Below are positions 890-58,758 of a stretch of DNA of 64,000 nucleotides, piece after piece. The stretch's first letter is position 1. Every line of letters begins with the position of its first letter. Under the pieces are notes generated by a model. It was given only the letters and a program-made list of their open reading frames with translations, ran no database searches and was not told the DNA's origin. A program made the position numbers and the translations under genes. Source of the DNA: Opitutaceae bacterium (GTDB lineage: Bacteria > Verrucomicrobiota > Verrucomicrobiia > Opitutales > Opitutaceae); contig JAUSID010000140.1 in NCBI GenBank assembly GCA_030648295.1, positions 1 to 64,000 of the forward strand, given 5' to 3'.

Positions 890-1116
890 ATTTTCGGGAA
901 ACTCCCGATGGCAGCGTCAGGGTCGGGCAGACGGTTCAGCCCGGTGGCATTGTCGGCGAATCGGCGTGGCGGTCGCGGAGCGGCGGAGAGCGATCCGGCA
1001 CCGAATTTCCGCCGGTTCTGAGCGCGGCCCATTTGCCGCGCAGTTGGCCGGGCTTGAAACCTCGCCGGCGGATTGCCATGGAGTGCGGCGCATCGCCACG
1101 TTCAAATCGCATCACC

Positions 1117-2523: not shown

Positions 2524-2537
2524 CCGGGCAAAAGAGG

Positions 2538-2681
2538 AACCGCGAATGAACGCGAATGAACGCGAATCCAGATATGGCGGAGGCGATCGCCGGCATGATT
2601 GCAGCTCAGCGAGCAGCAGTCATCGGGGGCGATTGGCCCGTCTTGGTTCTCATTCGCGTCCATTCGCGTTCATTCGCGGTT
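2538..2681. repeat. Long inverted repeat between convergent sulfatase genes
   Basis: The left arm at 2538-2567 contains repeats of the unit CGCGAATGAA. The right arm at 2652-2681 is its reverse complement with one mismatch over 30 bases, leaving an 84-base spacer. The right arm overlaps the last codons and the stop of the minus-strand sulfatase, so its final Asn-Arg-Glu-stop is encoded by the repeat. It probably folds into a hairpin that could terminate both converging transcripts. Mobile-repeat origin is an inference. Confidence 0.85.
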
Positions 2682-5892: not shown

Positions 5893-6029
5893 ATACGGTT
5901 TTCATCCTCGGCTGGGGTGTCCTCATCGCCGCCTCGATCGCGTGGTATGCGTTCCTGGTTTTTTACGTCGGCATCAAGGCGGGTCGCGAAATCCGCGAGA
6001 TGACCGACCGGCTCGCCCGGAAGGAATAA
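5889..6029 (+). CDS. 46-residue single-span membrane protein coupled to the symporter
   Basis: This small gene starts at the ATG inside ATGA, overlapping the symporter stop codon, and ends with TAA at 6027-6029. The protein starts MNTVFILGWGVLIAAS, has one hydrophobic span at about residues 3-29, then a charged helix with repeated basic and acidic residues ending RLARKE. Codon usage is GC-rich like its neighbours. The overlap implies translational coupling, and the layout resembles small accessory subunits seen beside some SSS transporters. I know no family that matches it, so an accessory or stabilising role for the symporter is inference. Confidence 0.75.
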   Translation: MNTVFILGWGVLIAASIAWYAFLVFYVGIKAGREIREMTDRLARKE

Positions 6030-6154
6030 TTGCGAGTCCTCTTCGGCCCGAGGCTGGCGCTTCGAAGGCGGTCGCGGTCCCCGACGGGGCGCCGTTCGGG
6101 CAAATGTTTTTGCGTCGCAAGCCCGGGAAGCGTGGGCAAGCCTCTGCCTTCACT

Positions 6155-38480: not shown

Positions 38481-39788
38481 TCAGCCAAACAGCTGGCGGC
38501 CAAGCCGGCGGGCAAGCGCGTGCTGCGCCGCCGGCAGCGCGGTTGGAAACGGCCACCGCAGGCTGTTGCCCAGGGTGGCGATCAGCGGCTGCACCGCCGT
38601 GAGCAGCCGGCGTAGTTCCTCCGCGGAGACGTGCAGCAAATTGTCGTGCACGCTATGATGCTGCCAGCGGCCGCCGGAGGAATTGGTCCGCATGAACCAC
38701 AACGAAGGCACCCCGGCACGGTTGAAGGCGAAGTGGTCCGAGAACGGCGTGATCTCCGGCTGGACCACGGCATCGAGCCCGCGCGCGGCAAGCCGGGCGA
38801 CGGTGAACCGCTGGAGCTTCGGGGAACCGGCGACGGATATCATCCAGTGCCCAAGTGGCGAGGAGACACTGTCGAAATTGATCACGAGCCCGGCGGTGGC
38901 GGGGGTGACGCGATGCCGGCGCACGTAAGCGGCCGAGCCAACGGAAAGCTGCTCCTCCGCACCGAATGAAATCAACCGCACCGTGCGCTCGAGCCGCCGT
39001 TTCGAGAGCGCACGCGCCAGCGCCAGCAGCGCGACCACGCCCGACGCGTTGTCGTCGGCGCCCACATTGCCGCACTGGGTGTCGTGGTGCGCGGTGAGCA
39101 CGATGGCGGGAGCTGCGGGCTGCCGGCCGCGCCACTCGGCGATGACATTCCGCGACTCGCCGGCCGGTTGATCGAGTGCCACCCGGACGCGCAGTTCGCG
39201 GACGCCATCGCGCCGCCACCGCCACGCGTCGGTATAGGGGACGGTGACCGTCGGCGGCATGCCGTACCGGCGGACCCAATACGGGTACACGCCGTCGTTT
39301 TTCGTCCAGCCAAAGGGCAGCCGCTCGTCGACATGGACCACGGCGAGCGGTTGGGCGGCGACCAGCCGCCGGTGCAATGCGACCTCGGTTGGCAGCGAAC
39401 CGAAAACCGCCACGATGCAATCGCGCCACGCGCCCGGTTTGATTCGCCGCCCCGCCTCGGGCAGCTCGACCCAGACCAGCTTGCCGGTGACCGCGCGGCC
39501 GCCGGGCGTGGCGGGCGCGCCGACGAGTGATGTGGCCTCCAGCGCATGCCAGCCGTTGGCCGTGCGTTCGTGCACCTCGGTCGTAGCCGAGCGGCGATGG
39601 GCGCATGGAAACGGCTCGATCGACACGTCGAGCCCGGCCGACTCGAACTGGCCGGCGATGAAGGCCGCGGCCCGATGTTCAGCCGCGGTTCCCGCCCGTC
39701 GTTCGCCGATTGTCTCACAGAGCATTCGCCAGTCGGGCCAGAGGTTCTCCGGGGCAAAGGCGTTTTCGGGCGTGCGCGCAGCAATCAT
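38481..39788 (-). CDS. M28-family metallopeptidase
   Basis: A 435-residue M28 peptidase, starting at the ATG at 39788. Zinc-binding residues are visible: H235 and D245 in TAHHDTQCGNVGADDNASG, E278/E279 in GAEE and the later H in QHHSVHD. A region of about 110 residues between positions 90 and 200 probably holds a PA-like insert. It likely removes N-terminal amino acids from peptides. A conventional signal peptide is not seen, so its location is uncertain. Confidence 0.9.
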   Translation of the reverse strand: MIAARTPENAFAPENLWPDWRMLCETIGERRAGTAAEHRAAAFIAGQFESAGLDVSIEPFPCAHRRSATTEVHERTANGWHALEATSLVGAPATPGGRAVTGKLVWVELPEAGRRIKPGAWRDCIVAVFGSLPTEVALHRRLVAAQPLAVVHVDERLPFGWTKNDGVYPYWVRRYGMPPTVTVPYTDAWRWRRDGVRELRVRVALDQPAGESRNVIAEWRGRQPAAPAIVLTAHHDTQCGNVGADDNASGVVALLALARALSKRRLERTVRLISFGAEEQLSVGSAAYVRRHRVTPATAGLVINFDSVSSPLGHWMISVAGSPKLQRFTVARLAARGLDAVVQPEITPFSDHFAFNRAGVPSLWFMRTNSSGGRWQHHSVHDNLLHVSAEELRRLLTAVQPLIATLGNSLRWPFPTALPAAQHALARRLGRQLFG

Positions 39789-39870
39789 GCTGTCACCGCA
39801 TGTGCCCGTCGGCGCCGGCCGGCGCAATACGGAAAGTGCAGAAGCAATCGAACGCTACGGCTGATTTCTT

Positions 39871-42309: not shown

Positions 42310-42797
42310 AGGCTTTCGGCCGCCCGTTTGCGGAGCCACCACTCGATGCCGGGCGGAATGTCACCGGCCGCGGCGTACGGGCCGGCGACGGCCGGCTGGT
42401 CCGGGCGGCTGCGGAAATCATAGGTAGCCGGATTGCGAAAAACGGGCGCGGTGGTGATTGCGTTCGTGCCGGCGGGGGCGTCGCCATTGGCGAAGAGATT
42501 GTATTCGTACGTCTGGCCGCCGCGATCGGAGCGTCCGCCCGACCAAAGCTTCACCAGGCTGCTGGCCGAATCGGCGGCCCCTTCGATGGCCCCAAGTTGC
42601 AGCCTGCTGCCGCCCAACACGGAGATCAGGAACCTCGGCAACAGCGGAAAGATCATCTCGCTGGCCACGTCGTTCAGCAGGCTGGCCCAGCCGAGCAGTT
42701 TTACGTTCGTCGGCAGGCGGCGTGACGTGGTGTGGTCGTTCACGGCAAAATGGCTGTTGCCCGCGCGTCGAGCAGAGGTTAGGTGCCGATCCGTCAC
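42306..42797 (-). pseudogene. Chimera: truncated MFS transporter start fused to beta-helix gene end
   Basis: The 163-codon ORF begins with an MFS-type start (KLLGWASLLNDVASEMIFPLLP, through LWSGGRSDR, 42797-42528) and then switches to the end of beta-helix protein 2 (YEYNLFAN and the segment TNAITTAPVFRNPATYD, to AAESL). That second part is a near copy of about 200 bases at 44388-44600, with an internal deletion. The MFS gene is cut off after about two membrane helices. The junction with the following gene makes a TGA within ATGA. It is probably non-functional. Confidence 0.85.
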
Positions 42798-44302
42798 TGC
42801 CGCTTGGCCGCAGTGACTTGCACGTCGTCCAGGGTGATTCCCTTGACGTGCTGGATTTCGGGCCCTTGCTCACTACTGATTTGAATGTTCTTCAAAATGA
42901 CGTTTTCGATCGGACGTTCGGGAAGTCCCCGAATCTCAATCGACTTGGTACTGCCCTCGCACACCACGTTCTCGAAGCGGATATTTCTGAATGTAGGAGG
43001 CGTGGTGGTCAGGGACTCGACTTCGGGCCACGGTTTCCCCAGGCCGAAGGCGGTGGTTATGCTGATCACCGGAACGCTTCTGATGGACTTCGCCTTCAGG
43101 TTCTTAATCCAGACGTCCTCGATGACGCCGCCGCGCCCCGGTTTCGACTTGATATTGATCACCCCGCTCGAACGATCGAACTGGCAATCGTGGATGTATA
43201 CGTTCCTGACGCCTCCCGACATCTCGCTGCCGATGGCGATGCGTCCGCAGCCGCCAGCGGAGCCGGAAAACCGGCAATGCCGGACAACGATGTTTTCACT
43301 CGGTTTGTTCACCCGCCAACCGTCTTCATCCTGCCCGGACTTGATCGCAATCGCGTCGTCATGGGTTGAAAATCGACAGTGCTCGATCAACACGTTCCGA
43401 GATGAATTGGGATTGATTCCGTCGGCGTTGGGACCATCGCCGTAGGTCAAGACATCAAGGTCTCGTGCAATGAACGAGTCCGCATACACAACGTTGACGG
43501 TCCATGACGGTGGCCGATCGAGCGTGAATCCTTCCAGTAGAACGTTGCGGCAGTGAACCAGCTCTATGATCGACGGCCGAATAGCGGATTCTTCGGTATC
43601 GAGGATGCGTTTTTCGACGGGCATATTCTCACCGGCCGCCTTCCTCAGGAAGTCGTAACCGTTTTGTTCCACTGCGCTGCCCTTTGTCCAATGCCAGGTC
43701 ATGAATTTCGCCCCCTGGCCATTAAGCAGCCCCTTTCCCGTCACGGCGATATTGCTGCACTCTAGCGCATAAATTTGCGATGAATGGCCGTAGAACTCGA
43801 TCCCTCTCCGCCGGAGCACCGGCGGGAGGTAGTCGGCTACGTCCTGGCTGAACCTGATTTCCGCGCCGTTGGCCAGGTGCAGATTGACGTTGCTTTTCAA
43901 CCGGATGGGGCCCGTCAGCCAGGTGCCGGCGGGAACGATCACCCGACCGCCGCCGGCTGCTGCACAGGCGTCGATAGCCGCCGCAAAGGCGGCGGTGTTT
44001 TTCACAGTGGGATCGGCTGACGCCCCATAGTCGAGAAGATTGAAATCCCTCTCGGGAAAGGATGGCCGCTGCAATTGGGGCATCGGAAAAGGCGCGTGTA
44101 TCGGCTCTATCGGCGGCAGTCCGCTGTCACCACTGGCGCCCGGCACAGTGTCGTTTCGGCCGGAGAGCTGGCGAACGGAATACTGGTAATGGTCGCCGCT
44201 GCGATGTTCGACTTTTTCGCCGGGCCGGGCGGGTTCGCCGCGCAGCGCGACTGCCGCGACGAGCGCGAGGCTCCCGGTCGCCCGTTGAATTATCGTTTTC
44301 AT
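42794..44302 (-). CDS. GH28-like polygalacturonase with altered signature motifs
   Basis: A 502-residue GH28 protein from the ATG at 44302, with a signal peptide and the same leader as beta-helix protein 1 (about 55 residues). The catalytic region has N292-A-D294-G and the D315-D316 pair, as expected in pectin hydrolases. The G-H-G motif is replaced by G351-C352-G353 and the R-I-K motif by N383-I384-K385, so two of the four family signatures differ. A changed substrate, perhaps a sulfated or modified uronan, is possible. Its stop overlaps the chimera start. Confidence 0.85.
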   Translation of the reverse strand: MKTIIQRATGSLALVAAVALRGEPARPGEKVEHRSGDHYQYSVRQLSGRNDTVPGASGDSGLPPIEPIHAPFPMPQLQRPSFPERDFNLLDYGASADPTVKNTAAFAAAIDACAAAGGGRVIVPAGTWLTGPIRLKSNVNLHLANGAEIRFSQDVADYLPPVLRRRGIEFYGHSSQIYALECSNIAVTGKGLLNGQGAKFMTWHWTKGSAVEQNGYDFLRKAAGENMPVEKRILDTEESAIRPSIIELVHCRNVLLEGFTLDRPPSWTVNVVYADSFIARDLDVLTYGDGPNADGINPNSSRNVLIEHCRFSTHDDAIAIKSGQDEDGWRVNKPSENIVVRHCRFSGSAGGCGRIAIGSEMSGGVRNVYIHDCQFDRSSGVINIKSKPGRGGVIEDVWIKNLKAKSIRSVPVISITTAFGLGKPWPEVESLTTTPPTFRNIRFENVVCEGSTKSIEIRGLPERPIENVILKNIQISSEQGPEIQHVKGITLDDVQVTAAKRQ

Positions 44303-44387
44303 CGTGTGCGATGGGTGTGTCATTGGCTCATTCGTTCGGTCATTAACCGGAAACTGGATCTTCAGCGGGGGGATGAGCGGCTTCGGT

Positions 44388-46304
44388 TCATCTCGATAGG
44401 CTTTCGGCCGCCCGTTTGCGGAGCCACCACTCGATACCGGGCGGAATGTCGCCGGACGCGACGTACGGGCCGGCGACGGCAGGCTGGTCCGGGCGGCTGC
44501 GGAAATCATAGGTAGCCGGATTGCGAAAAACGGGCGCGGTGGTGATTGCGTTTGTTCCGGCGGGGGCGTTGCCATTGGCGAAGAACTGGTTTTGGTCGAT
44601 GACAAACATGCCGGCGCGCGCAAAGGCCTCCAAAGAAGGTGTCAGCGTCGTACCGTTTTCGACAAAGATGTTGTGGCGGATGTATCCCGTGCTGGGGCGG
44701 TCGGCGAAACTTCCTTCGGGCGAGTTCTTCAACTCGTCGAAGGCGGTTTTCAGCTTGTAGAAGAGGTTGTGCTCGATCCGCACATTGGCCAAGGGCGAGC
44801 CGAAGCGGATGGCCGGTCCCTGCCGGTGGCCGGCAAAGATGTTGCCGCGGATCGTGATGTTCGTCAGCCGGCAGGCGCCCTTGCCGAGGTAAATCGCCGC
44901 GCCCGACGTGAGGTTGGCGAAGAGGTTGTACTCGTATGCCTGGCCGCCGCAACGACAGTCGCCGCTCGCGTCGGCTTGGTCGCGGCCCACTTCGAGCATG
45001 AAGACCGACCCGGCATGCCAGCGGTTGTCCCCCTGGCCCTCGATATAATTGAAACGCACCTTGATGTTGGCGCTGTTCCGCGCGTTGAGCACCGAGACGA
45101 TCGCGGCCGGTCCGGCCCACGGTCCGCCGTGGTGGAGGATGTCGTTGTGTTCGAAGACATGATTGTCGCCGTGTACCTGAAACACCTCGCGCGCGGGCCG
45201 GAGAAAGAGGTTGTTGCGCACGAGCCAGTCGGAACGATCCGAATAGCGCGGCGTCACCTGGCCGTTCTCGCGATCGAAGATTTGGGTGCCGTCGAGGAGG
45301 ATATGCATCCAGCCGTCGCGGCAGAAGTTGTCCTCGAAAGTCACATGGCGCTGCACGACGCGCTCCGCTTCGCGGTCGTACTTGCGCCGATGCGATTCGA
45401 AGATCTTGGTGAACATCCGGAACTCGCACCCGCGGAGCGCGGCGTAATGCAGGTCGCCGTCGAACAGTCCGCGGCCCTCACCGTCGAGGAGCAGGAGCTC
45501 GCCGTTCGGTTCCGGCCCGCCATACCACGACTCGAAGACGCAGGTGTTGGGGTCCTGGTCGCCGCGCGGCCGCACAAACAGCGTTTCGGTTTCCTGGTTG
45601 TAGGTGCGGTGCCCGGGCTCGGTGAGTGCATCGAGAGTGTCGGCCCAGAGAAGCGGCTGGTCGTCTTGCAGGAGCATGTAGGGGGCGACGGTGAAGAGAG
45701 TCGTCAGGGGAGTGGCGTCGTCGGGCGTTCGCGGCACATCCTTGACGCTCCACGGCCAGAGGTTGGCGTGCGTCCATTCGAGGCGTACGAAGCCCGGTTT
45801 GGTCTGCCAGATCCCCGGACGGCCGGTCACGCGCGTCCAAGGTGTCGCGATCCGCTGCGCGTCGTCGAAGACCACGCGTTCGTACCACGCGCCGCTCTTG
45901 CGTTGCACCGCTCCGGGCGCATGGGGTTCGGCCGGCATGGCTGAGAGCAGCGCGAAATCCTCGGGAGTGCCGCGCAGATTCAGCCGCCATTTCGTGACCG
46001 GCAGCTCATTGCGGTAGACACCGGCGCGCAAGTAGATCTTGTCGGAACGCAGGCCCTGTCTGACGCGGCCATCGACGACGGCGAGCGCGGGCGACAGGGT
46101 GCGGAACGGCGTGGCGAGCGCGCCGTCGTTGTGGTCGTTGCCCCTCGCGGGATCGACGTAAAAGGCGCGCGAACCATGCGGAGGCGGGCCGGCACTGTCG
46201 GTTGGCAGGGTAGTCGCCGCCGGAACGGAAAGCCCTGCGGCGATCAGTGCCAAGCCGGTGGAAAACACCCGAGGCGAGTGGAAGCTGGATGGGTGGCCGT
46301 TCAT
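44388..46304 (-). CDS. Secreted beta-helix protein 2 (DUF1565-like)
   Basis: A 638-residue secreted protein starting MNGHPSSFHSPRV, with a signal peptide and then SRAFYVDPARGNDHNDGALATPFRTLSPALAVV, an opening seen in DUF1565/parallel beta-helix proteins. The middle contains many beta-helix turns (NNLFLRPAREVFQVHGDN). The last about 70 residues are duplicated in the chimera at 42306. The start codon overlaps a decayed glycosidase end, in the same way that the sulfatase gene at 47817 overlaps an intact one. Confidence 0.85.
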   Translation of the reverse strand: MNGHPSSFHSPRVFSTGLALIAAGLSVPAATTLPTDSAGPPPHGSRAFYVDPARGNDHNDGALATPFRTLSPALAVVDGRVRQGLRSDKIYLRAGVYRNELPVTKWRLNLRGTPEDFALLSAMPAEPHAPGAVQRKSGAWYERVVFDDAQRIATPWTRVTGRPGIWQTKPGFVRLEWTHANLWPWSVKDVPRTPDDATPLTTLFTVAPYMLLQDDQPLLWADTLDALTEPGHRTYNQETETLFVRPRGDQDPNTCVFESWYGGPEPNGELLLLDGEGRGLFDGDLHYAALRGCEFRMFTKIFESHRRKYDREAERVVQRHVTFEDNFCRDGWMHILLDGTQIFDRENGQVTPRYSDRSDWLVRNNLFLRPAREVFQVHGDNHVFEHNDILHHGGPWAGPAAIVSVLNARNSANIKVRFNYIEGQGDNRWHAGSVFMLEVGRDQADASGDCRCGGQAYEYNLFANLTSGAAIYLGKGACRLTNITIRGNIFAGHRQGPAIRFGSPLANVRIEHNLFYKLKTAFDELKNSPEGSFADRPSTGYIRHNIFVENGTTLTPSLEAFARAGMFVIDQNQFFANGNAPAGTNAITTAPVFRNPATYDFRSRPDQPAVAGPYVASGDIPPGIEWWLRKRAAESLSR

Positions 46305-46413: not shown

Positions 46414-47817
46414 TCACGGCAGTTTCGCGTAGCCGCTTCCGGGCGTCGCGGTTTGCTTCACGGGGTACGCGGGGTTGTCCGTGCGCTCATATTGCATCAA
46501 CGCGGCGGCGCGTTGTGTTTCCTCGGGATGGGTGACGGACACGTCTTTCGTTTCTCCAACGTCAGTCTTCAAATCGTAGAGTTCGATGGCTTCCATCGGG
46601 CCGCGACGGATGGCTTTCCAATCGCCGTGGCGCACGGCTTGTGCGAATCCGCCCTCGTGGAATTCCCAGTAGAGATGCGGGTGCGCGCGCTGTTTACCGG
46701 CGTCGATCAGCGTGGGTAGAAACGAAATGCCGTCGGTGTCGGCGGGCGCCTTTTGCGCGGTGAGTTCGGCGAGCGTCGGCAGCAGATCCCAGAAGGCACA
46801 GACGTGGTCGCTGACGCCGGGCTTCACCTTGCCTGGCCAGCGCGCGATGAACGGCGCGCGAATGCCGCCTTCGTAGAGGTCGCGCTTGTAGCCGCGCAGC
46901 GCGCCGTGACTATTCAGCAGGCGGATGTAATCAGGCACGAGGTCGGTGCCGGCGTGGCCTTTCTTGAAGTAATACACCTCCGCGCCGTTGTCGCTGGTGA
47001 AGAACACGAGCGTGTTTTCATCGAGCGACAATTCCTTGAGCAGCGCGAGCAGCCGGCCCACGTCGCGGTCGAGCAAAGCGACCATCGCGGCGTAGTTCTG
47101 CACCGGCCGCGGCCACGGTTTGCCGGAGAAGGCGGAGGCATCGGGCACCTGGAGTTCGCCGTGCGGCAAGGTGACGGGCACATACGCGAAGAAGGGACGG
47201 GGGCGCTGTTCGCGGATGAATTTCAGCGCCTCGTCGAAGATGACGGTGTGCGAGTAGGTCTTGCCATTGAGCGGCGCCACCTCGGCGTTGCGACGCAGCA
47301 TCGTGGGATAGTAGTTGTGGGCGAGATTCTGGCAGAGGTAGCCGAAGAAAGTGTCGATGCCCTGCCGCGCCGGCTCGCCGCTGCTGCCCGGTCCGCCGAG
47401 CGACCATTTGCCAAAGGCGCCGGTCGCGTAACCCGCCTGCTTCAACATCGCGCCGAGTGTGAACGTGCCCGCTGGCAACGGCATCTGGCCCTCGGGTTGC
47501 GTGAACGTGTTCGCTCGCACGATGCCATGCCCGGTGTGCTTGCCCGTCATCAATGCGCACCGCGACGGCGCGCAAACCGTGCTACCCGAGTAGGCTTGGG
47601 TGAAGCGCAACCCCTCCGCCGCCATGCGGTCCAGGTTCGGCGTCGGAATCACTTTCCCGCCGTAGCAACCCAAGTCGCCGGTGCCGAGGTCATCCGCGAG
47701 GATGAAAACGATGTTGGGCGCGGCGGCGCGGCCGGCGGGGAGCGCGCCGAGAACCGCAAGAAGGAGGGCGAGGCGCAGATTCATCGGACGCGAAGGTCTA
47801 AATGGGTGGCCGTTCAT
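46414..47817 (-). CDS. Secreted sulfatase
   Basis: A 467-residue S1-family sulfatase. From the ATG at 47817 the signature is C82-A-P-S-R, following FILADDLGTGDLGCYG. The FGKWSLGG motif and TSDNGAE segment provide further metal and substrate residues. An alternative ATG at 47784 would give a cleaner signal peptide (MNLRLALLLAVLG). The first start overlaps the glycosidase stop and is used here. It probably removes sulfate from the polysaccharide that the adjacent glycosidases attack. Confidence 0.92.
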   Translation of the reverse strand: MNGHPFRPSRPMNLRLALLLAVLGALPAGRAAAPNIVFILADDLGTGDLGCYGGKVIPTPNLDRMAAEGLRFTQAYSGSTVCAPSRCALMTGKHTGHGIVRANTFTQPEGQMPLPAGTFTLGAMLKQAGYATGAFGKWSLGGPGSSGEPARQGIDTFFGYLCQNLAHNYYPTMLRRNAEVAPLNGKTYSHTVIFDEALKFIREQRPRPFFAYVPVTLPHGELQVPDASAFSGKPWPRPVQNYAAMVALLDRDVGRLLALLKELSLDENTLVFFTSDNGAEVYYFKKGHAGTDLVPDYIRLLNSHGALRGYKRDLYEGGIRAPFIARWPGKVKPGVSDHVCAFWDLLPTLAELTAQKAPADTDGISFLPTLIDAGKQRAHPHLYWEFHEGGFAQAVRHGDWKAIRRGPMEAIELYDLKTDVGETKDVSVTHPEETQRAAALMQYERTDNPAYPVKQTATPGSGYAKLP

Positions 47818-49607
47818 CTTGTCAGATGCAGCACCCAATCTTCCGTGTCGGGTGCGTTGAAACTCACGCGCCGTCCGCCATTGGTGGCGGACGAGCCGTG
47901 GTAGCTACCGAGCCGCGGATTGAGCCATTCCACTCGAAACGTCCCGGGCGCCGCCGACAGATCCAGTTCCACCTTTCCTCCGGCGGGAGCGTAGACGACA
48001 TATTCCTGGCCCGGATTGGCCAGGCAGACGTTGCCGGTATTCACGAGGGACTGCGCGGGCGCCATCTCCGCAAAACGGGTTTTCTTCGTGATGAACTCGT
48101 AGCGGTGCTTGAGTTGCGCGGCCAGGCCTTTGTCTTCGAGGAAGAACGCCGAGCGGCCGGGAGTTCCAGCGAGTTTGAGCGCCCAGATCGTGCCCTCGAA
48201 GCCAGCGGCGTGGGCCGCCCCTCCCCCCATGAACACCCGCCAGGCTTGGCGACGGGCCAAGTCAGTGGCGGCCCATCCTCCGTAGTTGGAACCATCGTAG
48301 TATTCGTAGCTGCTTTCGGTGTTGATCACGGGCTTGCTGCTGGTGCGATCCAAACGCACCACCCGGTCCACGCCTTCGCCGCTTCCGATGTAGAATGGCC
48401 GGGCGGGATCGGGCGCGGGGGCGCGTTGCAGCCCCGGACCATGCCAGATATTCTGCTTTCGATCGATCAACCGGGCATCGCCATAAAACTGCTGGGTCAA
48501 CACATCGATGTTGGGGCTGGCCCCGAATCGCGGCGCCATCAGCTTACCCCGGTCCATCAGGGGCTGTTCCCAAGGGTGGACGGTGGTGGGATGCTGGTGC
48601 GGGTCGGTGGCGTGCAGCAAACCTCCGACGTGTTCGGCCCAGGCGTTGTCCTCGGGCGTGGGGTCGCCATATTTGTTGTTCGGATAGACCTCATACTCAT
48701 TGCAGACGGTCCAGAGAAAAACGTGGGTGTAGGCGGCCAGGCGGGAGACGATGTAACGCACATAACGGTCCTCGCGGGCGGGGGTCCAGAGGTTGGGGTC
48801 GACGAAGGGCGACTCCCTGTAGCGGTAGAGAACGATGACCTCGGCGCGCATATTGTTCGCTTTCAAGTCCGCCAGCAGGCCATCGAGCGCCTGAAAGTGG
48901 GCGAGGTTGAACCGGTCAAAGTCATTGCCATTGGCGAAGGGCGATGTGGCGGGCTTGCCGCAAGCATGGAGCCGCACGAAGTTGAAGCCTTGGGCAGAGC
49001 GCGTCGCCAGATACCGGGCACGCTCCTCCAGCGACACGCCGTTGACGAGATAGTAGCAGGTGTCGCCGTTGCCCCAGAACGGCGAGCCGTCGTCGTAGGA
49101 AAACCAATACTTTCGCACGGGATCGACGCGGATGAACCCCTTGCTCGCCGACGGCACGCAGGTGAACGCCCCAGCCTGGTTGTTCAGGGCTGAATTCGAG
49201 GTGTCGCTGCAACTGCTGACATAGCTCCAGTCGCCGACTTCATCCGGCGCGAATCGCGCGCGCCACGTGTTGCCTCCGTCGTAGAAACCTTGGGCCGTAT
49301 GGCTGCGCCCTGATGGCGACGTGAAGGTGACCGCCACCGTCACGTCGGCGAACGGATTGGCATAGAGCGGGGTCGCGGTGCTTTTCAGCTCCGCCTCAAA
49401 CACGTCGTAGCGCGAAATCTTTGCCGGCGGCTCCGCCGCCATGCTCGGAATCCAAAACCCAAAACTCACCAGGCTGAAGACAATGAGGCTGACAGAGGAA
49501 TGGGGACAGGGGAATGAAAGCGGGGGCTTGATATTCCTTTGTCCCCATTCCCTTGTCCACCTGCCTTGGCTCGATGACGATGAGTGAAGATCCACGGGTG
49601 AATTCAT
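47814..49607 (-). CDS. Secreted DUF5060/DUF4038-type glycoside hydrolase
   Basis: A 597-residue protein with a hydrophobic N-terminal segment (about 39-58). DUF5060 lies at about 65-155 (beta-sandwich) and a (beta/alpha)8 domain at 160-590. Candidate catalytic residues are the acid/base E304 in VCNE304YE and the nucleophile E431 in NTE431SSYEY. It is the shorter relative of the glycosidase half of the M14 fusion gene at 52932. It may attack a pectic or sulfated backbone. Confidence 0.88.
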   Translation of the reverse strand: MNSPVDLHSSSSSQGRWTREWGQRNIKPPLSFPCPHSSVSLIVFSLVSFGFWIPSMAAEPPAKISRYDVFEAELKSTATPLYANPFADVTVAVTFTSPSGRSHTAQGFYDGGNTWRARFAPDEVGDWSYVSSCSDTSNSALNNQAGAFTCVPSASKGFIRVDPVRKYWFSYDDGSPFWGNGDTCYYLVNGVSLEERARYLATRSAQGFNFVRLHACGKPATSPFANGNDFDRFNLAHFQALDGLLADLKANNMRAEVIVLYRYRESPFVDPNLWTPAREDRYVRYIVSRLAAYTHVFLWTVCNEYEVYPNNKYGDPTPEDNAWAEHVGGLLHATDPHQHPTTVHPWEQPLMDRGKLMAPRFGASPNIDVLTQQFYGDARLIDRKQNIWHGPGLQRAPAPDPARPFYIGSGEGVDRVVRLDRTSSKPVINTESSYEYYDGSNYGGWAATDLARRQAWRVFMGGGAAHAAGFEGTIWALKLAGTPGRSAFFLEDKGLAAQLKHRYEFITKKTRFAEMAPAQSLVNTGNVCLANPGQEYVVYAPAGGKVELDLSAAPGTFRVEWLNPRLGSYHGSSATNGGRRVSFNAPDTEDWVLHLTR

Positions 49608-49632
49608 GATGCTCGTGTCCAAGCTGTGCAGA

Positions 49633-50895
49633 TCATCGCGAAGGCGGCACCGGAGGCAGGCCCGGCGACGGCGTGCCGCCCAACGCATTTTGCACCGCCT
49701 GGCGGAAAGCCGTCCGCAGCCGGTCGCCTTTCCTCTGGTCCTCCGGAAATTGGATAAACAGCATGCCAACGGTGCCGCTCTGGTGGTCGCCCCAGCCGGT
49801 CACGCCGCTCGAGCCGCCATGGATGAACAACCCGTCTTTCACCGTGAAACCGATCGCCGTGGATACCTCGGTGTTGTTGGTCGAGCCGCTGACAAAGCCG
49901 GGACGATGCGCCCGGTGCATTTCCGTCACGGAGGCGCGCGAGAGCACGGTGCCATTGTTGTCCAAAAACATTTGCTCGAACTTCGCCATGTCGCGGGTCG
50001 TGGAAAACACGCCGCCGTCCCCGGCGTCGTTTTGAATCTTCAGGTCGGGGTTGAAACGATAGATGAGCCGGCGGGCGCCGCGCTGCTCCTGATACACGGC
50101 CGCCATTCTGCCTGCGACCGAGGCCGGCGGCGCATAAGTGGAATCGCTCATGCCCAGCGGATCGAAGATGCGCTCTTTCACAAACGCCGGATAAGTTTTC
50201 CCCGAAACGGCCTGAATCAGCCGTCCCAAGACAAAGTAACCCGCACTCGAGTATTCCTGCCGCGTGCCTGGCTCGAACAGCAATTGGGCTTGGGCGATCC
50301 CTTCAATAATGTCGGTGAGCCGCTGCGTCAGCCAGACATCGGCGAGCGCGCCGCCGATCCGGTCGCCGCCTTTTCGGGTCGGTGGATTGTTCGGCAGCCC
50401 GGACGTGTAGAGCAGGAGTTGCCGGATCGTGAAAGGGTGATGGCGCCCTTTGAAATTCTCGCGACCGGCGAATTCCGGGAGATATTTTCCCACGGGATCG
50501 TCCATGCCCAGCTTGCCGTCCTGGATCAGCAGCATGGTCGCTGTCGCCGTGATGGCCTTGGTCATCGACGCGATCCAGCAGATCGTGTCGGTCTGAAACG
50601 GGAGATTGCGCTCGAGATCATGCTGCCCGTAGGCCGCCTCGCGGAGCACTTTCCCGTGGTGGGCGACGAGCGCCACCGCGCCGGGCACATCTCCATCGGC
50701 GACCGCCTGCTCGACGATTCGAAACGCCGCTGCCAGATCTGCGGCGCCGGGCTCGGCCGAGCGGACAGGCGCGGACAGAGCGATCAGGCAGCCGATGGCC
50801 GCGAGCAGGAACGTCCACGCGCGAAATCGATGCGGTGGCACGCTGGCCCGATCATTTCGTGCGGTGGCCTGTTGGGGAGGCGAATTGAAGTTCAT
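49633..50895 (-). CDS. Beta-lactamase class C-like serine hydrolase
   Basis: A 420-residue protein with an N-terminal membrane or signal segment (about 27-47) and the S110-M-T-K113 active-site motif. The Tyr motif reads Y-S-S-A in EYSSAGYFVLG rather than Y-x-N, and HGGSSGVTGWG stands where the third motif would be. Members of this family act as esterases, transacylases or penicillin-binding proteins. In this locus an esterase role on polysaccharide is plausible, but no evidence fixes the substrate. Confidence 0.88.
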   Translation of the reverse strand: MNFNSPPQQATARNDRASVPPHRFRAWTFLLAAIGCLIALSAPVRSAEPGAADLAAAFRIVEQAVADGDVPGAVALVAHHGKVLREAAYGQHDLERNLPFQTDTICWIASMTKAITATATMLLIQDGKLGMDDPVGKYLPEFAGRENFKGRHHPFTIRQLLLYTSGLPNNPPTRKGGDRIGGALADVWLTQRLTDIIEGIAQAQLLFEPGTRQEYSSAGYFVLGRLIQAVSGKTYPAFVKERIFDPLGMSDSTYAPPASVAGRMAAVYQEQRGARRLIYRFNPDLKIQNDAGDGGVFSTTRDMAKFEQMFLDNNGTVLSRASVTEMHRAHRPGFVSGSTNNTEVSTAIGFTVKDGLFIHGGSSGVTGWGDHQSGTVGMLFIQFPEDQRKGDRLRTAFRQAVQNALGGTPSPGLPPVPPSR

Positions 50896-51042: not shown

Positions 51043-52590
51043 CTACTTCTTCTTGGCCGGGGTGTTGGGCACCTCCCCGTCCAGCGCCCGGATTGGCCAG
51101 AGCTTCGAGGGCACGTGCTGCGCTTGCTGAATCGCCGCCAGTTGCGCGACAATCTCTGGATGTTCCGCCGCGACGTTGCGCGACTCGGCGGGATCGTTCT
51201 TCAAATTATAAAGTTCGATCGCGCCGGGCGTCTTGTTCTTCACGGCCGGGCGCGGATTCAGGTTGGTCCGAAGCGCCTTCCAATCGCCGACGCGCACGCT
51301 TTGCTGGCCGTCGTTGCCCGGCGACTCGCGATACAGAAACGGCCGCGGCGCCTGGGGGCGGCCGAGCAGCGTAGGCGCAAAGCTGATCCCGTCGAGGCCG
51401 GCGGGCGTGGCGTCCTGCGCGCCGATCAACTCCAACAATGTCGGCAGCCAGTCCTCGAAGCCGGTCACGCGATCGCACGTGGCGCCGGGCGCGATCCTGC
51501 CCGGCCAGCGCACGAGGCACGGCGCGTGGAAGCCGGCTTCATAGTAGTCGCCCTTGTGGCCGCGCAGGCCGCCGGCGCTGTTGAAAAAACCCGAGTCCGT
51601 GCCGCCGTACCGATCCCCCACTGGCCCGTTGTCGCTCGTGAAGACGACGATTGTGCTGTCGCGCAGCCCGAAGCCGTCGACCAGCGCGAGCAGGCGGCCG
51701 ATCTCGCGGTCGAGGCGCGTGATCATGGCGGCATACGCGGCGCGCGGCGTACGGTGCGGCAGGTAGCCTTTGCCGCCGAGGTACGGTTCTTCGGGAAACG
51801 CGTCCTGGTATTCCGCCAGCGAATCCGCGGGCACCTGCAGCGCCAGGTGCGGCACCGTGGTCGGGTAATAGAGAAAGAACGGCCGATCCTTGTTTGCACG
51901 CAGAAACCGCCGCGCCTCCTCGTTGATCACATCGGGCGCATATTCGTTGCCGGAAAACTGCGCGTAGCTCGCGGGATCGCGCGGATCCGCGCTGTCGGGG
52001 AGTTTTTGGTGCGCGCGAAACTCGCGATTGGCTAACGGCACGCGTTCGCGGTTGTTCCACAGGTAGGTTGGATAGTGGTTGTGCGCGACGGCCTGGTCGT
52101 TGTAGCCGAAGAACCGATCGAAACCCTGCGCGTTCGGTTCACCCGTGCCGCCGACGGCACCGAGGCCCCATTTGCCGAAACCACCGTTGGTGTAGCCGAG
52201 CTGTTTCAATAGGAGCGGTAGCTGCAACGTGCCCGCCGGCACCGGCTCCTGCCCTTCAGCCCCCGAGCCCGGCTGGCCGACCCCGCCCCGGTTCTCGCGA
52301 ATATAGGCGTGACCCGGATGCAGGCCACTCATCAGCACGCAACGCGAGGGCGCGCAGACATTGTGCCCCGAGTAATGCTGGGTGAGCCGCATGCCCTCCC
52401 GTGCGAGCCGATCGAGGTTCGGCGTGCGAATCTGTTTCTGCCCGTAAGCGCCGATTTCGGCGCGGCCGAGATCGTCGGCCAGGAGGAAAATGATGTTGGG
52501 GCGGCCAGGCGTGTCGGCGGCGGAACCAGCCGCCGCGAGTGCAAGCGCCGTGACGACGTAACGAAGCCCAGGATAGGAAATCGCATTCAT
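51043..52590 (-). CDS. Secreted sulfatase
   Basis: A 515-residue S1-family sulfatase with a signal peptide (about 1-25). The formylglycine site is C79-A-P-S-R and the metal segment IIFLLADDLGRAEIGAYG. FGKWGLG and TSDNGPV segments complete the active site. It is the second sulfatase of the polysaccharide locus and likely differs in position specificity from its neighbours, since the loops around the site are not conserved. Confidence 0.92.
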   Translation of the reverse strand: MNAISYPGLRYVVTALALAAAGSAADTPGRPNIIFLLADDLGRAEIGAYGQKQIRTPNLDRLAREGMRLTQHYSGHNVCAPSRCVLMSGLHPGHAYIRENRGGVGQPGSGAEGQEPVPAGTLQLPLLLKQLGYTNGGFGKWGLGAVGGTGEPNAQGFDRFFGYNDQAVAHNHYPTYLWNNRERVPLANREFRAHQKLPDSADPRDPASYAQFSGNEYAPDVINEEARRFLRANKDRPFFLYYPTTVPHLALQVPADSLAEYQDAFPEEPYLGGKGYLPHRTPRAAYAAMITRLDREIGRLLALVDGFGLRDSTIVVFTSDNGPVGDRYGGTDSGFFNSAGGLRGHKGDYYEAGFHAPCLVRWPGRIAPGATCDRVTGFEDWLPTLLELIGAQDATPAGLDGISFAPTLLGRPQAPRPFLYRESPGNDGQQSVRVGDWKALRTNLNPRPAVKNKTPGAIELYNLKNDPAESRNVAAEHPEIVAQLAAIQQAQHVPSKLWPIRALDGEVPNTPAKKK

Positions 52591-52931: not shown

Positions 52932-55865
52932 TCATGGCCGACGCGCCTTGAGGTGCAGCACGGCCTCCGGCCAGGGAGCGGAGAGGGAGAGTTGCTGGCC
53001 GCCCGGCACGGGCGCGGCATTGCGATACTCGCCTGATATCGGGTTCAGCCAGGTGACGGCAAAGTCGCCGGGCGCCGCAGTCAAATCCACGCTGACGGTC
53101 CCGCCGTGCGGAAGATAGATCGCGTAGACTTCCCCCGGCTCCGCCAGCGCCACCGCCTCGCCGGCAACGCCCGCGAAAGGCTGCATCCGCCAAAACGACA
53201 ACGCCGTGAAGAAGTCGTGCAGCAGGCCCAGTTGGGCGCCCGCCCCCTCGTCTTTCAGCGAAAACGTGTAGCGGTCCTCTCCCTTGGGATTGCCCCAAAA
53301 CTTCCGATTCCAGGAATCGCTCATGCCCAGGGTTCCGGCAAAGCCGGTAGCGAAATAGCCGCCGGCGCTGGCGATCCGCCAGGATGAACGCCGCACTTTG
53401 TCCGTGTGATGCACCTGCCGCCGGTAGCTCGGATAGTCGCGCAGATATTCGTAGCCATTCTCCGAATTGAGCACCGGCTTACGGTAGCAGCGGTCGGCGA
53501 GGAGGCTGGCCACGAGGGTTGGGGAATTTCCAGTGAAGCACTGGAGCTTCTCGTCCCACGCAACGGTCTCGCCCTCCTGCCCGGTCTGCTGCGAAATCAC
53601 ATCCATCGCGTCGCCGGGTCCGAAGAACTCGCCGATCCGCCAGGGAGCCTCAAAATCGGCCCCCGGTTTGCTGCCGCGCGCCGAGGCGGAGATGAGGGGA
53701 TGCACCGTCACCAGATGCCCGTAGGGATCGAACTTTTTGATGAACCGCGCCGCGTCCTTGGCCCAATCAGGGTCGCCTGGCCGGTCCAGGCGATACTGGC
53801 CGTCCGGGTGCGTCTCATACTCGTTCGCCAGCGTCCACAGGAAGACATTGTCGAGCGCGCCGTAGCGCGCCACCAGGTGACGCAGCCAGCGTTGCTCGCG
53901 TTCCTGCGTCCAAAGCCGGGGGTCGTTCATCGGCGCTTGGTAGAAATTTAAGGCGATCAGTTCGGCGTTCATGCCGAGCTTCCGCATTTCCTCCAACACG
54001 CCATCCAGGTGGCGGAAGTAGGCGGGATTGAAACGATCGAGGTCGGGCTCCTGCGGCGTCCCGCCGAAGGGCCAGAAGGCCGGGTCGGTTTGCGCGCGCC
54101 GCTGGCTCCAGGCCGCCTGCATGCGCACGAAGTTGAAACGCTGCGCGCGCCGGGTTTTCAGGTAGTGGGTCCGCAGCTCATCGGTGATGGAGCCGTCGCA
54201 CGCTAGGCCGTAGCAGGTGTCGCCCATGGGAAAGAACGGAGAGCCGTCCGCGTAGGCGAACGCATAGGGGTTCTGCGGATGGATGCCGATAAACCCGCGC
54301 CCGAGGGGCGCCGTGCAGCGCAATGCGCCGCGTTGAAAGAGCTCAACGCCCTCGCCGCGCAGCAAATAACGCCACTCGCCTTGCTCATCGGGCGCGAAGC
54401 GCAGGCGCCACATCTCGTCGCCGTTGAAAAAACCCTCGGCCTTGACGGTCTTGCCGGAAGGGGACGTGAACTCGCCCACCAGCGCGGCGTCGCGAAACGG
54501 ATTGGCGACATGGGAGCGTCCGCGCAGGACGAACTCGTGCATCTCCCAGCGCGGAACCTCGGGCACCGTGGCGACCGGGGGCGGCAGCTTCACGTCGTGG
54601 CGTAGATCGTCGAGAGTCGCGAAAAATGCGCCCGCGAACCCGGCGCCGGCGCGACGCGCGTCGTCGGTGGTGCGATTCCACCAGGGCATTTCCCAGCCCC
54701 AGACGCTCGTGCCGTACCGCTTCATCGCATATTGATGCACGTTCGCCTCGTTCAATGGGCGGCGACCGTGCCAGTTGAATTTTTCCGGTGGCACATCGTC
54801 CCGCCACCGATGGCCGGTGGCGCGCGGTGAAGGGAAACGTTGGGTGAACAGGTGCCAGGCCCTGGCCGTCACGGTGGGCCCGCCCTTCTCCCCGTCGGTG
54901 TAGAACACCACATCTTGATCGCGCGGGGCGATCCAGTTGTGCCAGGCCACGGCGAAATCCGGGCGCAGCCGATCCATCGCTGCAAAAGTCAGGCGACCCG
55001 TGGCGGTGCCATGCGGATCCGGAAAATCGTAGCCGCCGCGATACTCGTGGCCCTGCGCGACGCCATCGACGTTCGTCATCGGGTGCAGCGAGATGACGTA
55101 GCGCCGGCGAAATTCCGCCGCCGCATCGGCGAGGAGAAACTCGATGAGCCCCTCCATCGCAAACGACGAAAACGTCTCGTAGGCGTGCTCGCGCGCGTGC
55201 CAGAAGATTTTTTGTTTTTTCTCCAGCGCGATGGCCGGATCGGTGATCGTGAGTTCCCAGTGATCCCGGCCACCATCGCTCTTGCCGAGCGGGTGTTTGT
55301 CGAGGTGAGGATGGCTCGGCAGGGCGTTCACCCACCGCAACAAGTCAGCGTAGGAATACGACGGCCCCAGGCCAATCCTCGTCTCACCTGGTGCCGCCAC
55401 GAAACTCACGGTCGAGATCCAGCCTGCCGTCGTGCCGTTCACCTGTTGCCACGGTTTCCCCGGGGGCTGGATGAAAACGAAATCGCGCGTCGCCATTCCA
55501 CCGAAGGCCGTGGAGTCGAAGTCGGTCCGCTTGCCATCGCCGGACAAATCCAGATGCACCGTGACGGTGGCGGCCTGCTGGCTCTCGTTGCGGCAGATAA
55601 GATCGATCCGGGAAACCGCGTGTTTCAGCGGGCTGCGTCCTTCTTCGACGGAGGCCCGGATCCGGAACTCGGCCGCGCCGTCCGCCACGATGCGTGCGGG
55701 GTCGCGCGGCGTGCCGCCGTCCGCCGGCACCGACCACGAGATCGTCTGGGCCTGAAGGCAGGCGAGTCCCGACAGCAGGCTCACGACCGGGATGGCTGCG
55801 GTCGTCGCGAGGATGCTCCGGATGAATCTCGAAGCGGGCCAGAAGGACGGAATGTGGCGGTTCAT
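52932..55865 (-). CDS. M14 carboxypeptidase-like domain fused to DUF5060/DUF4038 glycosidase
   Basis: A 977-residue exported protein with two enzymes. Residues about 45-215 form a beta-rich N-domain, and 220-430 an M14 zinc-carboxypeptidase-like domain with H227-x2-E230 (AREHAYETF), a third ligand H309 (VAWHNW) and a catalytic-base candidate E392 (WGWEMPWW). From about 440 a DUF5060 domain starts, followed from about 522 by a (beta/alpha)8 glycosidase with acid/base E682 (LANEYE) and nucleophile E802 (NSENGYEY). Both halves keep their key residues. The pairing suggests action on a peptide- or amide-linked glycan, which is inference. Confidence 0.85.
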   Translation of the reverse strand: MNRHIPSFWPASRFIRSILATTAAIPVVSLLSGLACLQAQTISWSVPADGGTPRDPARIVADGAAEFRIRASVEEGRSPLKHAVSRIDLICRNESQQAATVTVHLDLSGDGKRTDFDSTAFGGMATRDFVFIQPPGKPWQQVNGTTAGWISTVSFVAAPGETRIGLGPSYSYADLLRWVNALPSHPHLDKHPLGKSDGGRDHWELTITDPAIALEKKQKIFWHAREHAYETFSSFAMEGLIEFLLADAAAEFRRRYVISLHPMTNVDGVAQGHEYRGGYDFPDPHGTATGRLTFAAMDRLRPDFAVAWHNWIAPRDQDVVFYTDGEKGGPTVTARAWHLFTQRFPSPRATGHRWRDDVPPEKFNWHGRRPLNEANVHQYAMKRYGTSVWGWEMPWWNRTTDDARRAGAGFAGAFFATLDDLRHDVKLPPPVATVPEVPRWEMHEFVLRGRSHVANPFRDAALVGEFTSPSGKTVKAEGFFNGDEMWRLRFAPDEQGEWRYLLRGEGVELFQRGALRCTAPLGRGFIGIHPQNPYAFAYADGSPFFPMGDTCYGLACDGSITDELRTHYLKTRRAQRFNFVRMQAAWSQRRAQTDPAFWPFGGTPQEPDLDRFNPAYFRHLDGVLEEMRKLGMNAELIALNFYQAPMNDPRLWTQEREQRWLRHLVARYGALDNVFLWTLANEYETHPDGQYRLDRPGDPDWAKDAARFIKKFDPYGHLVTVHPLISASARGSKPGADFEAPWRIGEFFGPGDAMDVISQQTGQEGETVAWDEKLQCFTGNSPTLVASLLADRCYRKPVLNSENGYEYLRDYPSYRRQVHHTDKVRRSSWRIASAGGYFATGFAGTLGMSDSWNRKFWGNPKGEDRYTFSLKDEGAGAQLGLLHDFFTALSFWRMQPFAGVAGEAVALAEPGEVYAIYLPHGGTVSVDLTAAPGDFAVTWLNPISGEYRNAAPVPGGQQLSLSAPWPEAVLHLKARRP

Positions 55866-55921: not shown

Positions 55922-57340
55922 TTAGTCGAGGATTGGCCAATGCTTGTTCTCGGTTCTGGCTGCCGCGAGGACGTCCTCCAGTTGCTTTACGATGGCGGGA
56001 TGTTGCGCCGCCAGGTTGCGGGTCTCTCCGATGTCTTGCTCGAGATTATATAGCTCTAGCGGCGCCTTCGTCCCATGCCGCACCGCTTTCCAGTTTTCCC
56101 TGCGCACGGCCTGTTTGAAACCGTTCTCATGAAACTCCCAATATAGATATTCGTGCCGTTCCTGCTCCTTCGGCCGGCCAAGCAGGGTGGGCACGAGGCT
56201 GATGCTGTCCGTGTTCGGCGCCGACCTCCCGCCTGCCAGCTCGGCCGCCGTGGCCATCAAGTCGCCGGAATAGCCCACATGGGCGCTGACGCCGGGCGCG
56301 ATCCGGCCGGGACACCACGCGAGAAACGGCACGCGAATGCCGCCTTCATAGAGATCGCGCTTGTGGCCTCGCAACGGTCCGCCGGACCGGAAAAATTCGG
56401 TCCGCTGGCCCCCTTCGACCTGCAATCCGTTGTCGGACGTGAAAAACACCAGCGTCCGGTCAGAGATTTTCAGCCTGGCCAGAAGCTCGAGCAACTGCCC
56501 CACATACGCGTCGATTTCGGCGATCTGCGCCGCGAACGCCTTGTCGGCATCGGGCCAGTCCTTTTCGGCGAACGCCCCGAAGTTGCGGCATTCCTGCCCG
56601 GCCCCGGTGGCGCCAGTCAGCTCGTTGTTCGCGTGCGGCTGAATGGGCGAATAGTAGAGGAAAAACGGCCGCTCCTTGCTGGCCTCGATCCATTTCAGCG
56701 CCTCGGCGTGCAGGAGGTCGGGAGCGTAATCGACCCTTTCGACGGGGAGGCCCGCGCCAAACCGCTCGTAGTCTTTGCCTTCTTTTTTCACCTTGTTGCG
56801 CAGTTGGATGCGGCCTTCGTTCCGGATCAGAAATTCCGGCCAGGCGTTGTGGGCATGGTGCTGATTGAGGTAGCCGAAAAAGAAATCGAATCCGTGCCGC
56901 GTCGGCATCGAATCCGTTCCTTCGACGCCAAGCCCCCATTTGCCGACCAGCCCCGTCGCGTAACCGGCCCGCTTCAAAACATCGGCGACGGTCACGTCCT
57001 CCGGCTGCAAATTCTGCGGGGTGTCGTCGGTCAGCCACGTCCGCGTGTTGCCGCGCACGCGCGTATGGCCGTGATGTTGCCCCGTCATCAACACGCTTCG
57101 CGAAGGCGCGCAAACCGTGGCCCCCGCGTAAAACTGGGTGAAGCGAAGCCCTTCCGCCGCCATTCGATCCAAATGCGGCGTGGGCACCCATCTCTGACCG
57201 TAGCAGCCGAGATCGCCGTATCCCATATCGTCCGCCATGATCCAGATGATGTTGGGGCGGCGAGACGTGTCGGCCGCGGAACAGGCCACCGCGAGCGCGA
57301 GGGCAACGACGATAGGTCGAAATATAAAATGAGGAATCAT
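55922..57340 (-). CDS. Secreted sulfatase
   Basis: A 472-residue S1-family sulfatase from the ATG at 57340, which overlaps the stop of the acetyltransferase gene (ATGA). A signal peptide (about 1-22) precedes [18 protein letters not shown] and the formylglycine site C77-A-P-S-R. VGKWGLG and TSDNGLQ are present. The coupling to a membrane acetyltransferase suggests that desulfation and acetyl transfer act on the same glycan, as with HGSNAT and lysosomal sulfatases in heparan breakdown. Confidence 0.93.
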
Positions 57341-58533
57341 ATTTTCAGAAATAGTTTTCGACGATACATCCAAAACAACATGAGCCAAAACACCGCCAGC
57401 ACAGCGGCACCGAGGAAAAACGGCTCGTAAGCCGCGCCCGCTGAACGGAAGAAATGTTTTCCCAGGTGCGTCTCCAGGCTCTTCACGACGAAGGGTTCGA
57501 ACAGGTGCGCGATCATATAGGCGGATATGGAATTCATGCCGATGACCATCAGCGGAAACGCCCAATTCTTCGTATTGCGCAGATCGAGCAGGGCATAAAA
57601 GCCGGCCATCAACAGGAGACACCCGCCTCCGCTGAAGAGAGTCCAGCTCGGCGTCCAAATCCGCTTCACCACGGGACAAATGCCCGACGCTCCAATCAGC
57701 CAGCCGGCGGCGATGCCGATCGTGCCGGCTGCAACCAGCCAGCGGACCTTGGCGGTGGGCGTGCGGTCACTGCGCAGCACACCGCCGGCAATCAGCCCGA
57801 GTATCATCGTGCCGAGTGTCGGGATGAAGCTCAACGTCGCGTAGCCGCCTTCGTTGAAGCGAAACGGCTGCTCGCGCGGGAAGAGGTTCAGGAACCACGT
57901 GTCGAAGGCCCAGGCAAGATTGCTATTATTCTGCCAGTGCGCCGCGAATCCACCCAGCCCGTGAGCCGCGAGCCACGCCGGTTTCACGCCCACCGCCGCA
58001 TAATTGAACTCCGGCCCCGGCGCGGGCCACAGCGCAAACGCCGTCCAATACCCGACGAGGATCGCGGCGAAGGCCAGCCACTGCGCGCGAACCGATCGAA
58101 AGCCGAGCAGAAACAAAAAGCCGTAGCCCAACCCGATCTGGGTCAGCGTGTCTTCGAGCGTCCAGTTCGTCTGCGCCGAGTGGGTCGAGCGCAGAAATAC
58201 ACCCAGCAGCGCAAGGAGCAGCGCCCGCCACCACGCGTGGAGAGCCATGCGATGGATCGGCTGCCCACGGGATGTCCGACTCGCGATCGAGAACGGCAGC
58301 GCGACTCCGACTAGAAACGAAAACGACGGCTGAATGAGATCATGCAGCGAGCAGCCCACCCATTCGACGTGGGTCTGGTGATAACTCAAAAACCGCCAGG
58401 AGCCCGAGCCGGGGAGCGCGTTCGCAACGGTGGATAGTTGCAGCACCTCGGCCATCATCAGAAACATCACCAAGCCGCGGAACGCATCCATCGATCGCAG
58501 TCGTGGATGAGCGGCTTGATGCGCGGCTATCAT
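57337..58533 (-). CDS. HGSNAT-like membrane acyltransferase (DUF5009)
   Basis: The product is a polytopic membrane protein with about ten helices, 398 residues from the ATG at 58533. The opening [20 protein letters not shown] and the segment [19 protein letters not shown] match heparan-alpha-glucosaminide N-acetyltransferase relatives (DUF5009/DUF1624). The HDL His may be the one acetylated in the human enzyme. A TTG start at 58596 would add 21 residues. It probably acylates an aminosugar across the membrane. Confidence 0.85.
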
Positions 58534-58758
58534 TGGCGGTTCCGACTGACGAAATCGCTGGGAGGATTCGAATCGTTGGGTTTCGGCTGTGCTCAAAGGA
58601 GTCGGGCTATATCAATCTCATGGTGCGGCTCCCGTTTTCGGCGCCAGCGGTTTGAAGTTGACGATCGCGTGTTTTCCTTCCGGCGAGATTTACGTTCCAA
58701 TTCTTGCCCATGTCATGAACGGTTTCGATATTGCGATAGACCCATCCGCTCGATTTCA

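Follow-up and report, generated by a model that had tools for sequence, protein, structure and literature searches.

What does a protein do in which a zinc-carboxypeptidase-like domain of the M14 family is followed, in one chain, by a glycosidase, and is such a protein real? The question is raised by one gene of the window, that is, the whole 64,000-nt stretch of an Opitutaceae contig (JAUSID010000140.1) analyzed here. An earlier note on this DNA had described the gene product as an M14–glycosidase fusion in which both domains keep their key residues, and had proposed either a substrate with both peptide or amide and glycosidic bonds, or a new role of the M14 domain on glycans. The features of the gene and of its surroundings are listed in Table 1.

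Table 1. Features of the fusion gene and of neighboring genes, in window coordinates (residue numbers refer to the 977-aa protein)
Feature	Coordinates	Strand	Evidence
Whole gene, M14-DUF5060-glycosidase fusion, 977 aa	52932-55865	-	one open reading frame
Signal peptide region, residues 1-37	55755..55865	-	read by eye
N-terminal beta-sandwich, residues 42-165, resembling the N-domain of CCP-type (M14D) enzymes	55371..55742	-	model strands and 4b6z structural match
M14 catalytic domain, residues 168-425	54591..55364	-	Pfam and fold matches to CCP-type M14
Zinc motif H227-A-Y-E230	55176..55187	-	invariant 8/8; aligned to HxxE of relatives
Shortened substrate loop, residues 273-287 (HEYRGGYDFPDPHGT), single Arg R276, without Asn-Arg motif	55005..55049	-	
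Zinc ligand H309	54939..54941	-	invariant 8/8
General base E392	54690..54692	-	invariant 8/8
DUF5060, residues 436-501	54363..54560	-	Pfam
DUF4038/Apiosidase-like TIM-barrel glycosidase, residues 533-892	53190..54269	-	Pfam; fold match 4n0r, ManDH5, GH140
Predicted acid/base E682 (N-E motif)	53820..53822	-	invariant 7/7 complete members; aligned to N-E of GH5 mannanases
Predicted nucleophile E802	53460..53462	-	invariant 7/7 complete members; weak alignment to 4n0r
C-terminal beta domain (Collagen_bind_2-like), residues 908-957	52995..53144	-	Pfam, slightly under curated cut-off
S12 serine hydrolase (Beta-lactamase family)	49633..50895	-	Pfam
Sulfatase	51043..52590	-	Pfam
Sulfatase; the listed TTG probably lies ahead of the true start	55922..57679	-	Pfam
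Glycosidase-half paralogue lacking M14 (DUF5060-Apiosidase)	47814..49769	-	Pfam; 40% identical
Sulfatase	46414..47838	-	Pfam
GH28 (polygalacturonase family)	42794..44623	-	Pfam
M28 peptidase	38481-39827		
GH127	5822-8614		
Two further sulfatases	1033-4217		

The domains are assigned by Pfam matches to Peptidase_M14 (residues 178–274, E 9.9e-10, above the cut-off), DUF5060 (E 1.4e-19) and DUF4038/Apiosidase (E 1.3e-29); the scores of PF13204 (DUF4038/Apiosidase) and DUF5060, 104.3 and 70.5 bits, both exceed their curated cut-offs of 26.5 and 27.2, and the C-terminal Collagen_bind_2 match (E 2e-4) scores 21.5 bits, just short of its cut-off of 22. NCBIfam has no family for the fusion protein or for the paralogue of its glycosidase half.

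The fusion itself is genuine, as claimed. At the junction in the window gene there is no stop, no signal peptide and no start site. The search for the same architecture in other genomes, suggested earlier, was made with the M14 half in 84,980 species genomes (19 pattern matches) and yielded seven relatives, 58–68% identical in the best M14-half segment. The junction is in frame in all seven, and six carry the whole glycosidase half in the same frame, which measures between 953 and 1261 residues from stop to stop; in the remaining one (L054) the contig ends inside DUF5060. Two relatives, L053 and L054, have in place of the window-type signal peptide an SRRxF start, which we take to be a twin-arginine motif. 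An assembly or annotation artefact, including an assembly error at the domain boundary, which had been named as a refuting possibility, is hence rejected as barely credible: the genome of the window is a draft in 294 contigs and all seven relatives are metagenome assemblies, but the identical junction recurs in seven independent records.

The records of the relatives are labeled as Verrucomicrobiota (four), Planctomycetota, Acidobacteria and Hydrogenedentota. Three of these phylum labels are safer than four, since that of the Hydrogenedentota relative (L054, a 3.4-kb contig) may be a binning error; upstream of the fusion, this relative and the one from Acidobacteria (L053) have outer-membrane genes of one kind. 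The fusion is rare. M14-half matches beyond the window's own were at most 39% identical in a same-order sample of 372 genomes, and the centre genome was the sole match at 1e-30 in a phylum sample (387 genomes), in samples from the phyla of the L050 and L053 genomes (294 and 297 genomes, respectively) and in one from the class of the L055 genome (286 genomes). Among 57 relatives, a full-length match came from the window's own genome only. As few first-look candidates were scored per genome in the samples, and the scan of 84,980 genomes requires exact short peptide patterns, some members may have been missed. The 19 pattern matches on viral contigs included no relative of the fusion protein; 98 plasmid records matched, none covering more than 80% of the query, and the matches listed (n = 15) involve the DUF5060-glycosidase half. 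The loci compared for M14 relatives lacking the glycosidase half contain no glycosidase-half match at 1e-20.

The M14 half has, according to its model, the fold of CCP-type (M14D) enzymes with the N-terminal beta-sandwich. In phmmer comparison with solved structures it matches CCP5 (E 8e-5) and 3l2n (E 0.004). AlphaFold2 modeling on the 8-row alignment gave pLDDT 68 for the whole protein and pLDDT 75 with pTM 0.79 for the M14 half alone; confidence is low in active-site loops of the models and, in that of the whole protein, around the glycosidase nucleophile. The best structural match of the M14-half model is 4b6z (Z 30.8, rmsd 3.3 over 343 residues, covering model residues 4–385), followed by 3k2k (Z 30.4), 3l2n (30.3) and the human-type CCP5 (24–26), while classical carboxypeptidases score about 18–19; Foldseek also retrieved CCP-type M14 structures. 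The set compared comprised BcCCP (4b6z), BmCCP (3k2k), SdCCP (3l2n), PaCCP (4a37) and AGBL5/CCP5 (8v3m). The fusion shares with them the beta-sandwich and M14 domain (Z 24–31), as well as the zinc ligands and the general base, and differs in having HAYE for HPGE, in its predicted export and in being joined to a glycosidase.

The statement of the earlier note that both domains keep their key residues stands in part. The zinc ligands H227, E230 and H309 and the general base E392 are invariant in all eight fused members, so that by sequence the zinc site with its base appears intact, and the Glu/Glu pair of the glycosidase is likewise present; the Asn-Arg anchor is not retained in any copy. M14 enzymes anchor the substrate via R127, N144 and R145 (carboxypeptidase A numbering), with the Asn-Arg pair holding the C-terminal carboxylate. 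In BcCCP their counterparts R226, N235 and R236 hold the substrate carboxylate (PMC3940198). The Asn-Arg motif with the following aromatic residue is found in none of the eight fused copies, compared to 23 of the 26 M14 relatives that lack a glycosidase half (L030, a copy of L025, was left out); the remaining three are L016, whose contig ends before the motif, one L041 copy with Gly-Arg, and L027, which was not evaluated. For example, the L026 loop holds LNRDW, with Asn-Arg present.

The stretch that runs from N265 to H309 has 44 residues in the fused family, compared to 52 in BcCCP. It reads N-V-D-G-V-A-x-G-x-E-Y-R-x-x-Y-D-[FY]-P-x-P, the first Asn being His in L055, and R276 is the sole arginine remaining in the substrate loop. 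Its register differs between methods. The hhalign alignment (probability 99.7%) places R276 on R145, that is, the Arg of Asn-Arg, with Y275 at the Asn position, and the count from H309 agrees (R276 is 33 residues before H309, and BcCCP R236 is 32 before H268). The MAFFT alignment puts R276 one column from R127, and counting from the N-x-D-G side also sets it next to R127 (N265 +11, compared to +10 from N216 in BcCCP). In either register the Asn and at least one of the two arginines are gone, so that, judging from the alignments, the anchor of R127 and N144-R145 is incomplete.

The glycosidase half is closest among solved structures to 4n0r, found by phmmer at E 9e-27. In the ranked comparison this structure scores 6e-41; next come 8t9w, a GH140 apiosidase (1e-18), and ManDH5, a GH5 mannanase (2e-11). 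Foldseek returned the same set with 4n0r on top. N681-E682 aligns to the N-E motif of mannanases, N681 is invariant in the seven complete members together with E682 and E802, and both glutamates are also found in the window paralogue. The sequence thus appears to have the features of clan GH-A, a TIM barrel, an N-E acid/base and a Glu nucleophile, with a complete Glu/Glu pair. GH-A glycosidases act by double displacement.

The relatives of this half do not supply a substrate. BVU_0362 (4n0r), a putative glycoside hydrolase, is the best solved relative of the DUF5060-glycosidase half, but it is uncharacterised and has no M14 domain. ManDH5, a GH5 beta-mannanase (9gmj, 9gpg), shares DUF5060, the TIM barrel and the acid/base aligned to E682; it comes from a hyperthermophile, lacks M14, and the sequence match is weak. 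GH140 apiosidases (BT_1012, 5msy/3kzs; 8t9w) agree in fold and Pfam match, but the catalytic pair of BT_1012, the GH140 founder, is Asp187/Glu284 (PMC4032388). A canonical GH140 apiosidase is therefore rejected, as all seven complete copies have Glu682/Glu802, and the Pfam label "Apiosidase" does not transfer a substrate. Membership in PF13204 still stands, since the same paper reports Asp at that site in 82% and Glu in 17% of its members (PMC4032388). An apiosidase-like gene next to one of the relatives (L050) has GGD at this site.

The surroundings were studied by Pfam scans of chosen large frames. Besides the genes of Table 1, the window encodes beta-helix proteins and a 1446-residue pectate-lyase-like/DUF1349 protein. 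The frame 57337-58596 (-) encodes a multi-spanning membrane protein that by eye resembles acyltransferases of the heparan-alpha-glucosaminide N-acetyltransferase type; it matched no Pfam family, at a threshold of either E 0.001 or E 0.01. The relatives are accompanied by GH127 and sulfatase genes (L049), by heparinase-like, PL2, GH95, apiosidase-like and M19 dipeptidase genes (L050), by a TonB plug protein, a sodium symporter and GH4 (L051), by a histidine kinase with a regulator propeller (L052), and by an outer-membrane barrel and a GntR/FCD regulator (L053). The single neighbor scanned for L055 is not a glycan gene and encodes a planctomycete-type cytochrome protein. Near L050 lies a 1896-residue frame (L066:4679-10366, -) whose DUF5060-DUF4038 glycosidase shares 45% identity with the window paralogue and is joined to esterase-like (GCE/AXE1) and GH123 domains, a further case in this glycosidase group of several enzymes fused in one chain.

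The two halves of the fusion are retained equally well: over the 21 pairs formed by the same seven proteins, identity averages 62.0% in the M14 half and 60.4% in the glycosidase half (correlation 0.68), and therefore both have evolved under similar constraint. Still, the genome of the window also has a glycosidase without M14 (L021:6182-8041, +), 60% identical to the glycosidase half of the fusion, so that the glycosidase does not need an M14 half. This 620-residue frame has its own signal peptide and adjoins a long TonB-receptor-like frame. In the glycosidase-half tree (16 rows) the seven fused rows do not fall on one side of a branch and require two changes, one change being seen in 0% of 200 bootstrap trees. 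The stand-alone L021 glycosidase groups with L052 and L055 at 83/85, under the starred level, and as it falls among the fused rows, M14 was likely lost in its lineage.

The explanation that we prefer, tentatively and at a little under an even chance, is a conserved, predicted-exported two-enzyme protein of glycan degradation, whose zinc half may remove an acyl or amide decoration. After export, the glycosidase half would cut, by double displacement as expected of GH-A, the backbone or a side chain of a polysaccharide that bears decorations and is often sulfated or rich in uronate. The M14 half, with a zinc-water activated by E392, would hydrolyze a decoration of that glycan, either acyl or amide, possibly an ester, and would not trim free protein C-termini; candidates are an amino acid joined to uronic acid through an amide bond, an N-acyl substituent, or an ester. 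Such an arrangement would parallel carbohydrate-esterase domains fused to glycosidases. It is favored by the recurrence of the junction across the phyla, by the equal retention of the two halves, by the invariance of the zinc ligands and base while Asn-Arg is absent from all eight copies, and by the glycan enzymes around the window gene, L049, L050 and L051. Loss of the standard carboxylate anchor disfavors ordinary protein C-termini as substrates, and the glycan neighborhood, together with the related glycosidase fused to an esterase-like domain, favors a decoration on glycan. Of the two substrate proposals made earlier, a new glycan role of M14 would fit better than a substrate with peptide or amide and glycosidic bonds. 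Peptidoglycan is ranked low, as only the S12 family (window, L050) hints at it and the other scanned neighbors are pectin-type or sulfated-glycan enzymes.

The preferred explanation is weakened by the possible equivalence of R276 and R145, which would leave part of the anchor, by peptidase genes near two loci (M19 by L050, M28 in the window), which fit an amino-acid or peptide substrate, by the L055 neighbor and by the existence of the L021 glycosidase. The same R276 register and the same peptidase genes, with the close M14D fold (Z 30.8 to 4b6z) and the spacing to H309, speak for a true carboxypeptidase or aminoacyl-uronate amidase, which would recognize a free carboxylate with R276 as R145 and release peptides or amino acids either from a glycoprotein or from a polysaccharide decorated with amino acids, before or after the action of the glycosidase. 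We consider this possible rather than probable: even in the hhalign register the Asn is lost to Y275 and R127 is then missing, the MAFFT alignment and the count from N265 set R276 near R127 instead, and the neighborhoods are mostly of glycan enzymes. A dead or nearly dead M14 half, kept as a glycan-binding or structural module, would agree with the occurrence of the L021 glycosidase on its own, and has precedents in vertebrate pseudopeptidases, e.g., CPXM1, which keeps the zinc ligands, R127 and E270, lacks R145 and is listed as inactive (PMC11266112). It is unlikely, however, as the zinc ligands and base, and many adjoining residues, are invariant in all eight members at only about 62% pairwise identity, and a pure binding module would not need them. 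In CPXM1, AEBP1 and Ecm14, R145 or other anchors are altered as in the fused family, but their domain partners differ, and AEBP1, CPXM2, CPD-III and Ecm14 lose a zinc ligand or the base as well (PMC11266112), while the fused family keeps both.

It is possible rather than probable that the zinc half forms a new lineage within the M14 fold, one that has abandoned C-terminal carboxylate recognition and become a carbohydrate deacylase. Such an enzyme might be an amidase that takes off amino acids or N-acyl substituents, or else an esterase, and would act on uronic-acid-rich or sulfated polysaccharides in cis with the DUF5060 glycosidase. The folds are known, but no characterised M14–glycosidase fusion, and no characterised case of this combination with the active-site change, was found in the literature searched, subscription papers and preprints lying outside its scope. 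If the zinc half acts on glycans, a carboxypeptidase fold would join the carbohydrate-active enzymes, which would point to polysaccharides with amide- or acyl-linked groups outside the reach of known esterases. The fusion may also serve as a handle, as the halves should share a substrate and that of each would predict that of the other. It supplies substrate context for bacterial CCP-type M14 enzymes, whose substrates are reported to be unknown (PMC3940198).

Two further observations concern the S12 gene and the M14 family. In one relative (L050:4011-7793, +) the fused frame is longer at its upstream end, where it encodes, without a frame change, the first half of an S12 serine hydrolase (positions 3–172 of 329 of the Pfam Beta-lactamase profile), 46% identical to the S12 gene of the window; the join reflects a triple fusion whose S12 part is truncated, a deletion, or an assembly chimera. 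Finally, a group of M14 relatives (L037, L038, L039, L041, L043–L046 and L048) carries H-N-R-D-Y in place of the usual Asn-Arg motif sequence, with residues of the Gly-Lys type at the expected R127. By its sequences this group appears to be a second variant of M14 in these bacteria, one whose oxyanion arginine is altered.
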